From Alphaproteobacteria bacterium (GTDB lineage Bacteria; Pseudomonadota; Alphaproteobacteria; Reyranellales; Reyranellaceae): a stretch of 47,521 nt of DNA. The number at the start of each line of letters is the position of its first letter. Position 1 is the stretch's first letter. The position numbers and the translations under genes are program-made. The stretch is from the NCBI GenBank assembly GCA_016870115.1, contig VGCH01000022.1, forward strand, positions 1-47,521, written 5' to 3'. The notes beneath the pieces are model-generated. The model did no database searches, was not told where the DNA came from, and worked only from the letters and a program-made list of their open reading frames with translations. Shown here in pieces: positions 42,805-46,015 of the stretch.

Positions 42805-43767
42805 CTATTGTAGCTTGATGCCCTTCTCGGTGAAGAACTTAATCGCACCGGAGTGGAAGGGAACCGAGGAATTGGCCTGCTTCTGGTTCTCCGCCGTCAT
42901 GTCGGTGGCGGCCTTGTGGGTCGCGACCAGATCGCCGTGGTTCTCCCACAGGGTCTTGATGATGGTGTAGGCCTGCTGGTCGGACATCGAGGCCGGCACG
43001 ACCAGGATGTTCCAGATCGCCATCACATTCGCGTCGTTGTCCTGGCCGGGATAGGACTTCGCCTTGATCTTCCCGTGGGCGTAGACCGGCCCGTGCGCCT
43101 TGATCATGCCGTCGACCAGATCGCGATGATCCACGAGCTTCATCTTGACGCCCTGGCTGGCCGCGAGATCGGTGATCGCCGCGACCGGCGGCCCGCCGGC
43201 GAAGAAGTAGCCGTCGAGCTTGCCGTCCTTCATGGCGTTGGTTGACTCGGCCGGCGCCAGACGCTCGCGCTTGATGTCGCTGTTCTTGAGACCGATCAGG
43301 TCCATCATGCGCTGGGCCATCACCTCGGAACCGCTGACCGGCGCGCCGGTCGAGAAACGTTTGCCCTTGATGTCGGCGAACTTGTTGATGCCCGTGCCTT
43401 CCATCGTGACGATGTGCACGAGGTTCGGATAGATGATGGCCAGGGCGCGGGTCTGTGAGACCTTGTCCTTGAACTTGTCCTCGCCCCGGATCGCGTCATA
43501 GGCCGTGTCGGCCTGGGTAAGCGCGACATGGGCCTTGCCGTCGCGCAGCATGTGCAGGTTGGCGACCGAGCCGGCGGTCGCTTCCGCGGTCACCGACCAG
43601 CCCTGCACCTTCTTGCTCAGGAGATTGGCCATTGCGCCGCCCAGCGGATAGTAGACGCCGCCGGTCGTCCCGGTGGCGATCGAGAACTGGTTCTGGGCAA
43701 GTGCGGGCGCCGCAACGAGGGCACCGACCGCGAGCGCGGCGGCGCCGATAATCTGACGACGGATCAT
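42805..43767 (-). CDS. TRAP transporter TAXI-family solute-binding protein
   Basis: A 320-aa periplasmic receptor. The ATG at 43767 has GGAGG upstream and gives MIRRQIIGAAALAVGALVAA, a signal peptide ending ALAQ near residue 25. FSIATGTTGGVYYPLGGAMA is the family signature; FSTGAPVSGSEVMAQRMMD and LDGYFFAGGPPVAAITDLA follow in order. Family members bind carboxylates such as glutamate or 2-oxoacids; the ligand here cannot be read. It is followed by a terminator-like hairpin and the fused TRAP permease. Confidence 0.93.
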   Translation of the reverse strand: MIRRQIIGAAALAVGALVAAPALAQNQFSIATGTTGGVYYPLGGAMANLLSKKVQGWSVTAEATAGSVANLHMLRDGKAHVALTQADTAYDAIRGEDKFKDKVSQTRALAIIYPNLVHIVTMEGTGINKFADIKGKRFSTGAPVSGSEVMAQRMMDLIGLKNSDIKRERLAPAESTNAMKDGKLDGYFFAGGPPVAAITDLAASQGVKMKLVDHRDLVDGMIKAHGPVYAHGKIKAKSYPGQDNDANVMAIWNILVVPASMSDQQAYTIIKTLWENHGDLVATHKAATDMTAENQKQANSSVPFHSGAIKFFTEKGIKLQ

Positions 43768-43889
43768 TTCTGGAAGCCTCCCAAGCGCCGGCACCGGCCG
43801 GCCGCCGCACATGTGGCGGTTCCTGCGAAAACCGCAAGGGAGAAATGCGATTCCCGAAACGACAAAAGGGCGGTGTGGAAAGGCTTTCT

Positions 43890-44351
43890 CTATAGCCCCG
43901 CGACCCACATTTCCCGCTCGGCCGCCCGCCGCCGCACCAGCCCCGGCAGGATGCCGGCCGGCGACTGGACCCAGCGGCCGAACTGGTCTGCGGCCGCCCG
44001 CAGCTCGCCGCGATTGACCAGCCGCCGCAGGGTCGAGGCCGCCAAGGCGCCCTCGCCCAAGTTGTAGGTGAAGCTCACCAGCGCGGCGTAGCAGGGATCC
44101 GTGAGCGGCACCTCGATCAGGCGGCACACCGCCCGCTCGTAGCGGGCCATGTCGCGCCGCAACAGCGCCTCGCCCTGCTCGGTCGTGAGCGGGGTGGGCC
44201 AGCTTTCGCCGGCCGTCACCACATGCCCGTAACCGATCGTCGGATAGCCCGCCGGACAGACATAGACCGTGGCGCTGAACCCCTCGAAATGCCGGATCAG
44301 CGCCAGGCCGTCGTCGTCGATCGCGCGCGGCGAGCGCGGGAGCGCGCTCAT
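43890..44351 (-). CDS. GH24 endolysin (phage-type lysozyme)
   Basis: A 153-aa muramidase that cuts the glycan strands of peptidoglycan. HFEGFSATVY and GYPTIGYGHV give the catalytic triad in the E-8aa-C-5aa-T form: Glu23, Cys32, Thr38; several phage endolysins use Cys in place of Asp. There is no signal peptide or SAR helix (start MSALPRSPRA at 44351), so release would need a holin, and the gene just upstream, overlapping by 4 nt (ATGA), encodes one. The remaining residues (YAALVSFTYNLGEGALAAST) match the helical lobe. Part of a two-gene lysis cassette without other phage genes nearby. Confidence 0.92.
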   Translation of the reverse strand: MSALPRSPRAIDDDGLALIRHFEGFSATVYVCPAGYPTIGYGHVVTAGESWPTPLTTEQGEALLRRDMARYERAVCRLIEVPLTDPCYAALVSFTYNLGEGALAASTLRRLVNRGELRAAADQFGRWVQSPAGILPGLVRRRAAEREMWVAGL

Positions 44352-45034
44352 GCGCGCGCCCGTTCCTTGTTGAAGGTCCGGTTGCCGAACCAGAAGGTGA
44401 TGATGGCCGACCAGATCGCCCAATCCTCGTTGCCCCACATGGTGACGACGACGGACGCGAAGCCGATCGCGCCGACCGCTTCGGCCGACAGAAGGATGAA
44501 CTGCGCCAGCTTCAACGCCGCGTAGAGCAGGAAGAACATCAGCGTCAGCGACGGGCGGATCATGGCGGCGAAGGCATCCACCCAGGTCACGCCGGACGGC
44601 TTCGACGCCGCCCCGAAGGCCAGCGCGTCGTGCTGCACATCGGCGAGCGCGTTGATCTCCGCCATCTTGGCGGCGTGACCCAGCTCGACCAGCCGGGCAT
44701 GGATCGCCGCCTGTTCGCGCATGAACTCGAGCTGATGCTTGTGATCCTGTTTGCGCTCGAAGAAGGCGAGGATGCGGGGAAGGCCGGACCCGAACAGGCC
44801 GATCAGCGAACCGAGTAGCGCGAGCATGTGTTCCTCCTGCGCCCAGTGTTGCATCAGCATGCGAAACGCGACCTCGAGCAGCCGGGTTTCGAGCGCGATC
44901 AATGCCGCCAGCGCGGCCCAGATGACGCGCTTGATGGTGCGCAGATCGTCCCGGATGCCGGCGTAGCGTTCGGCACAGACAGCTTCGTGGGCGGTGAGCC
45001 GCAGGTCGATATCGTGAATGGTCGTCTCGGTCAC
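44348..45034 (-). CDS. GTA-type 3TM holin with N-terminal extension (possible dual start)
   Basis: The full frame from the GTG at 45034 (AAAGGAGAG site) codes for 228 aa. An internal ATG at 44827 has an even better site, GCAGGAGGAACAC, and gives a 159-aa protein starting MLALLGSLIGLFGSGLPRIL. This shorter form matches the GTA_holin_3TM pattern: a first helix, a charged middle segment (FERKQDHKHQLEFMREQ), then helices at IRPSLTLMFFLLYAALKLAQ and the end IITFWFGNRTF. The extension (VTETTIHDIDLRLTAHEAVC) adds a helix near VIWAALAALIALETRLL. Both starts may be used, or two ancestral genes are fused in frame. It overlaps the endolysin gene by 4 nt and diverges from the DapA-family gene. Confidence 0.8.
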   Translation of the reverse strand: MTETTIHDIDLRLTAHEAVCAERYAGIRDDLRTIKRVIWAALAALIALETRLLEVAFRMLMQHWAQEEHMLALLGSLIGLFGSGLPRILAFFERKQDHKHQLEFMREQAAIHARLVELGHAAKMAEINALADVQHDALAFGAASKPSGVTWVDAFAAMIRPSLTLMFFLLYAALKLAQFILLSAEAVGAIGFASVVVTMWGNEDWAIWSAIITFWFGNRTFNKERARA

Positions 45035-45109
45035 TTTTCTCTCCTTTACGAGGTGACAGGGGCCCGTCCCTGTTTCACGATTGCGCGAGAAACTTCGGGA
45101 GGACGGACG

Positions 45110-46015
45110 ATGGCGAACAAACTGCAGGGCGTGATCCCGCCGATGACGACACCCTTCGCTGCCAATGGCGACGTGGTGCTTTCGGCAGTGAAGCCACAGG
45201 TCGACTGGATCGTCGGAGCCGGCGCACACGGGCTGGCCGCGGGCGGTTCGACCGGTGAAGGCCACACGCTCGATCCGGCGGAGTATCGCGACCTCGTCGC
45301 CGCGACGGTCGAAGCCGCCGCCGGTCGCGTACCCGTGGTCGCAGGCATCATTGTCGATTCGACGCGCGACGCGGTGCGGCGCGGCCGGGCGGTGCGCGAT
45401 CTCGGGGTGGCGGCGCTACAGGTGACGCCGGTGCACTATCTCTTCCGGCCCGACGACGAGGCGATGGTCCGCCACTTCCGCACCATGGCCGACGAGGCGG
45501 GCGTGCCGATCATCATCTACAACGTGGTGCCCTGGAGCTACCTCTCGCCGGCGCTGCTGGTGCGGATCATGAAAGAGGTGCCGCTGGTCGTGGGCGTGAA
45601 GCAGAGCGCGGGCGACCTCAAGCTCTTCGCCGACCTGATGCTGGCGGTGCCGCCGGGCAAGTCGATCTTCTCGGCCGTCGATGCGCTCATGTATCCTTCC
45701 TACACCTTGGGCGCCCACGGCTCGATCGCCGCCATCCTGTCGGCGGCGCCCCATGCCTCGGTGGCACTGTGGAACGCGGTCAAGGCGGGCGATCACGCGC
45801 GCGCGCTCGACCTCCACGGCAAGCTGCTCGCGCTGTGGAATGCGATGATCGCCGACAATCTGCCGGCTTGCACCAAGTTCGCCCAGAGCCTGCAGGGAGT
45901 CGACGCGATGGAGCCGCGCGCGCCCATGCCGGCGGCGACAGCGGCCCAACGCGCCGCGATCGAGCCCGCGCTCAAGGCGCTGGGGGCGATTCCGGCCACG
46001 CGCCGGTCGGCCTGA
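45110..46015 (+). CDS. dihydrodipicolinate synthase (DapA) family aldolase/lyase
   Basis: A 301-aa class I aldolase of the DapA/NAL superfamily. GVIPPMTTPFAANGDV opens the TIM barrel, GGSTGEGHTLDPAEYRDLV is the substrate-carboxylate loop (here GSTGEG), Tyr137 in IIYNVVPW and Lys164 in VVGVKQSAGD are the catalytic tyrosine and the Schiff-base lysine. The ATG at 45110 follows GGGAGGACGG and is preferred over the longer frame. The family includes enzymes for pyruvate-derived carbon chains other than lysine synthesis, and the lack of lysine-pathway neighbours leaves the substrate open. It diverges from the lysis cassette and ends just before a convergent reductase gene. Confidence 0.9.
   Translation: MANKLQGVIPPMTTPFAANGDVVLSAVKPQVDWIVGAGAHGLAAGGSTGEGHTLDPAEYRDLVAATVEAAAGRVPVVAGIIVDSTRDAVRRGRAVRDLGVAALQVTPVHYLFRPDDEAMVRHFRTMADEAGVPIIIYNVVPWSYLSPALLVRIMKEVPLVVGVKQSAGDLKLFADLMLAVPPGKSIFSAVDALMYPSYTLGAHGSIAAILSAAPHASVALWNAVKAGDHARALDLHGKLLALWNAMIADNLPACTKFAQSLQGVDAMEPRAPMPAATAAQRAAIEPALKALGAIPATRRSA

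Follow-up and report, generated by a model that had tools for sequence, protein, structure and literature searches.

A probable orphan phage lysis cassette in an alphaproteobacterium, with an accessory gene apparently fused in frame to a holin-like gene

Background

Class I holins have three helices, with the N-terminus out and the C-terminus in, according to an excerpt of PMC9636201. Lysis may also require additional small proteins: in PBSX of Bacillus subtilis the small protein XhlA, the holin and the endolysin are all needed for lysis or vesicles (PMC5589764, in excerpt), and efficient lysis by the mycobacteriophages Girr and NBJ requires two holin-like proteins (PMC13056207, abstract). Since these systems need two or three lysis proteins, a small protein that cooperates with the holin would, by analogy, be at least as natural as an antiholin.

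Here we describe a lysis locus from a member of the Reyranellaceae (assembly GCA_016870115.1, contig VGCH01000022.1); "the window" denotes the whole stretch of DNA analysed, 47,521 nucleotides. We consider it likely that the locus is an orphan phage lysis cassette in which the accessory and holin genes have become fused in frame, the internal start surviving, and that it is the final remnant of a prophage that inserted upstream of a TRAP-receptor gene. This explanation is based on homology, on the occurrence of the two parts as separate genes elsewhere, on a shared neighbourhood and on the absence of portal and terminase matches; that both products are made, how they lie in the membrane and that they act in lysis is what we infer beyond this.

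Results

One frame with two starts

The open frame at 45034-44348 (reverse strand) runs from a GTG to a TGA and encodes 228 amino acids, which we read as a small accessory lysis protein (residues 1-69) followed by a three-helix holin-like protein (residues 70-228). An in-frame ATG at 44827 begins a short form of 159 amino acids (44348..44827, reverse strand), to which the GTG start adds an extension of 69 codons (44828..45034, reverse strand). As originally predicted, each start has a good ribosome site: AAAGGAG lies ahead of the GTG, where the Shine-Dalgarno stretch is AAAGGAGA (45040..45047, reverse strand, position approximate), and GCAGGAGG lies ahead of the internal ATG, where the Shine-Dalgarno stretch GCAGGAGGA (44832..44840, reverse strand) is probably inherited from the start that the second gene had before the fusion. 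Base-pairing to the end of the 16S rRNA amounts to -8.7 kcal/mol at the GTG and -10.3 kcal/mol at the ATG; among 685 ATG/GTG sites drawn at random from the window, about 8% and about 4%, respectively, pair as strongly. A promoter scan, of little informative value, gave no sigma-70-like site and two terminator-like sites, against 1.2 expected. The structure model of the fused protein is weak (mean pLDDT 67, pTM 0.37) and depicts the extension as one long helix over residues 3-63; a fold search among viral models returned no match at E 0.001 or better, and a PDB sequence search no match.

The short form

The short form matches phrog_6637, a family of unknown function, at E 1.1e-26 over residues 2-156 (155 residues), i.e. 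over most of its length, and can be assigned to it. It shares with that family a conserved RP..T and W..FWFG stretch and the frequent proximity of a lysozyme; among the matches listed, no phage member is fused to the extension. Similarly, the matches in 15 phage records (22-36% identity) are confined to residues 86-228 of the fused protein, and none of the 15 covers the extension. Several of them have a lysozyme annotated at the match or next to it, and in AcaML1, MW202825 and MW202481 it lies directly 3' of the match; in a Bradyrhizobium phage (H1) the listed features have no lysozyme directly after the match and a peptidoglycan-binding protein two genes upstream. It is because of these neighbours that we infer the short form to be a holin.

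The original prediction called it a GTA-type holin, which stands only as a distant resemblance. No Pfam family scored above its cut-off, and PF11351 (GTA_holin_3TM, cut-off 24.8 bits) gave no match up to E 1, so that membership of this Pfam family is ruled out. The three predicted hydrophobic helices and the C-terminal half of RP...FWFG-R-K type do resemble GTA_holin_3TM, whose profile is matched at E 4.5e-23 by the holin of another locus (L059), unlike the short form. When the short-form family profile was compared by hhalign with an alignment built from four viral-contig holins of GTA type, of which one is a confirmed PF11351 match, a probability of 92.8 over 57 columns was obtained. The family thus appears to be a remote relative of the GTA holins at most.

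The extension

The extension is truly coding: over its first 46 residues it matches proteins that relatives encode separately, at E about 1e-11 and 52-57% identity. The conserved homology is with a small stand-alone phage gene and spans residues 1-47, including the motif HEAVCAERY; residues 48-69 are not conserved. In viral contigs, all of the best 80 among at least 255 confirmed loci encode the accessory protein as a stand-alone product of 45-95 residues with a C-terminal hydrophobic helix. Over residues 37-55 the extension reaches its hydropathy maximum of 1.7, against 1.6-1.8 in the relatives, and its hydrophobic stretch bears E, R and E. Compared with this nameless family, the window protein thus shares the first 47 residues and the motif, whereas the stand-alone relatives end in a clean hydrophobic helix and the window helix is charged (ETR...E) and continues into the holin. 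A phage search with the window extension alone found no match, a Pfam search with the extension and five relatives found no XhlA family, and a literature search for the motif found nothing.

About 28 residues are common to the HEAVCAERY family (44828-45034 of the window and loci L023, L059, L061 and L041) and NF048001, the NCBIfam family of Rcc01685 from the gene transfer agent of Rhodobacter capsulatus. This profile matches 12 of 16 aligned HEAVCAERY members at E 0.1 or better (best 7e-7); the members viewed individually score at most 24 bits, the membership threshold being 50 bits, and the window extension has no match. Rcc01685 is a hypothetical protein of unknown function whose knock-out still forms oblate heads, according to an excerpt of PMC7296036. 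Its kinship may lie with a protein of the lysis module and not with a head protein.

Two genes in the relatives, one frame in the window

A search of genome contigs found nothing with the single short form and 10 loci with an alignment. In the Reyranella family, 14 of 75 genomes match (including G025 and G055, with weak matches of E about 1e-4 only), and the records of several matching contigs name Reyranella sp.; both parts lie in one frame only in the window's genome. In five relatives (G017, G033, G024, G032 and G111) the accessory gene is closed by a TGA of its own, and an intact holin gene in another frame begins just after it. The alignment of homologues suggested as a check on the original prediction thus found a stop between the parts in five relatives, and together with the 80 stand-alone viral proteins (the best of at least 255) this supports its second alternative, in which two small phage genes have been fused in frame. 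Other members are more degraded or differently built: the holin of G038 is frameshifted and in two pieces, G042 has a stop inside the accessory gene and a holin cut short, and in G110 the accessory-gene match is absent and another frame reaches the holin start. The slot before the holin is occupied by a DUF6127-type protein in G052 and G053 (Pfam match on G052, 94% identity between both) and by a third kind, rich in glycine and asparagine, in G047. Across loci L001, L024, L027, L030 and L036, the proteins that precede the holin are small, have one hydrophobic stretch each and fall into at least three kinds (HEAVCAERY, DUF6127 and glycine/asparagine-rich).

The distance from start to start is 215 nt in four relatives (L022, L023, L025 and L026), 214 in G038 and 207 in the window, and therefore only the window has both parts in frame. 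Relative to the other loci, the window has a net loss of 8 bases at the junction; homology at the DNA level is continuous through it, and in the alignment 4 bases are gained and 12 lost close to it, their exact placement being uncertain. A difference of a few bases, seen in a single genome of 59 contigs, could reflect an assembly or sequencing error joining two genes that the real genome keeps apart. Yet in the ancestral frame a TGA is met after diverged residues, by eye, without restoring a normal accessory protein, and GC by codon position in codons 48-69 (0.77/0.27/0.82) fits the fused frame, albeit in a small sample of 22 codons; we regard such an error as very improbable.

The same comparison bears on the idea, raised in the original prediction, of a dual-start pair like lambda S. 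In such a pair the long form would bar the first helix from the membrane and so delay lysis until depolarisation. The idea draws its support from the presence, within one frame, of two similarly strong ribosome sites, and a soluble, charged N-terminus would be expected to hinder N-out insertion of the first holin helix, judging from the class I topology given in the excerpt of PMC9636201. However, the pair is absent in all relatives examined. These already start the two parts separately, which accounts for the start signals without any switch, and in the window the long form exceeds the short one by 69 residues. We therefore consider a lambda S-type pair quite unlikely. The internal start did outlive the fusion, which leaves some room for a holin/antiholin reading. 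A literature search for holins that combine an internal start with an N-terminal extension listed a single paper.

The lysozyme and the host genome

The fused frame directly adjoins an endolysin gene, as in phage holin-endolysin cassettes: its stop overlaps the start of a phage lysozyme of 153 amino acids (43890..44351, reverse strand; overlap ATGA, 44351-44348) with no apparent N-terminal membrane or signal segment. The Phage_lysozyme domain is matched at E 4e-39, the only PF00959 match in this genome, and the alignment shows that the E-8-C-5-T spacing, which we take to be the phage lysozyme motif, is kept. Elsewhere in the genome, searches for portal, terminase and GTA_TIM (PF04860, PF03237 and PF13547), each with a positive control, gave no matches; those with PF11351 and PF12236 were also empty, although they carry little weight since their positive controls were silent too. 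Among the window's called genes, we saw by eye no phage-like gene outside the cassette; the divergent gene upstream, beginning near 45111, reads like what we presume to be dapA. A gene transfer agent was considered for this genome and rejected, no GTA or phage structural genes having been found. A plasmid search for relatives found no match. Because no portal or terminase was found in the genome, the lysis cassette is an orphan, and probably a prophage remnant.

Downstream of the cassette lies a gene (42805..43767, reverse strand) that we take to encode a TAXI-type TRAP transporter receptor. The same receptor (E 1e-120 or better) is present in 27 of 75 family genomes, and in 5 of these 27 loci the holin and lysozyme lie just upstream of it (G000, G032, G024, G053 and G038), i.e. 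in the window and four relatives; in another of the 27, G047, the contig ends about 300 bases upstream. Still further upstream, G032 carries phage genes, among them one for a head-tail connector (PF12236, E 7e-142). When G032 is compared with G053, the holin shows a synonymous distance of 1.29 and the receptor one of 0.44, a hint that the cassettes reached this site separately. Related prophages seem to have inserted repeatedly upstream of the receptor gene, and at L024, L025, L026 and L028 they are found at different stages of decay. At L134-L159 a TGTTGCCT...TGGTTTNTTCCGC element precedes the receptor gene, even with the cassette present; by eye, positions 43773-43889 of the window are without it. 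Among the four papers listed for Reyranella and prophages, no title pointed to such a cassette.

Kept or decaying

Third-position GC of the window cassette (0.90-0.92) is close to that of its neighbours (0.89-0.91), whereas in L024, L025 and L026 the cassette (0.72-0.80) lags behind them (0.81-0.92). For holin and lysozyme dN is 0.27-0.36 and dS, near saturation, 0.71-1.44. The composition and the excess of dS over dN fit either long residence under constraint or a phage of similar composition, and the neighbour-like codon usage and intact frames fit a working, selected cassette rather than simple decay.

One may accordingly consider a domesticated two-domain holin, where the host uses only the fused protein and the lysozyme, for vesicle release or controlled lysis, with the internal start idle. 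Composition equal to that of the neighbours and dN below dS would agree with this, as would the vesicles made by xhlA-xhlB-xlyA of PBSX in B. subtilis with all three genes required (excerpt of PMC5589764). On the other hand, the internal ribosome site equals in quality that of the relatives with two genes, unbroken frames also fit a recent remnant of a compositionally similar phage (third-position GC of the L023 holin is 0.865), and the holin at the same site in G038 is frameshifted, so that domestication of this kind seems unlikely to us. A bolder proposal, that a kept and adapted phage cassette gained, through the fusion and the surviving internal start, a novel holin/antiholin pair whose regulatory domain spans 69 residues and which serves the host in vesicle release or programmed lysis, is decidedly improbable.

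Discussion

The fused orphan cassette thus stays our preferred explanation, and what counts against it is that the fusion is seen in a single genome and that the codon usage and unbroken frames would suit a working, selected cassette better than simple decay. We propose that a single-helix accessory gene and a three-helix holin gene were joined by small indels at the junction (net -8 bases), which removed the stop, and that the second gene has kept its ribosome site and its ATG within the fused frame. Judging from that ribosome site, internal initiation would still yield the 159-amino-acid holin, which would gather in the membrane and let the cytoplasmic lysozyme pass; with no evident membrane anchor or signal, the lysozyme would need a holin. 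The GTG start would yield a 228-amino-acid form with a long cytoplasmic helix, probably a by-product of the fusion that may slow or tune the holin. Its soluble start of 69 residues would presumably hinder N-out insertion, unless the helix of the extension itself crosses the membrane. By analogy with systems in which small lysis proteins cooperate, joining an accessory protein to a holin need not destroy function.

Should both products be made, the locus would show that losing a stop is enough to create a two-form holin, with no second start having to evolve; if there is only decay, the locus is an ordinary prophage leftover. The natural fusion also indicates which small protein pairs with which holin, in a slot that relatives fill with at least three kinds.

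Among known systems, lambda S and phage 21 S also have two starts in a single frame, both of which have a usable ribosome site in the window, but their forms (S107/S105 and S71/S68, respectively) differ by few residues, according to the excerpt of PMC9636201, whereas in the window the difference is 69 residues and constitutes a separate domain. The resemblance to XhlA-XhlB-XlyA of B. subtilis PBSX lies in the order of a small coil-plus-helix protein, a holin and an endolysin; the window differs in that its first two members form one frame and that the small protein has no Pfam XhlA match.
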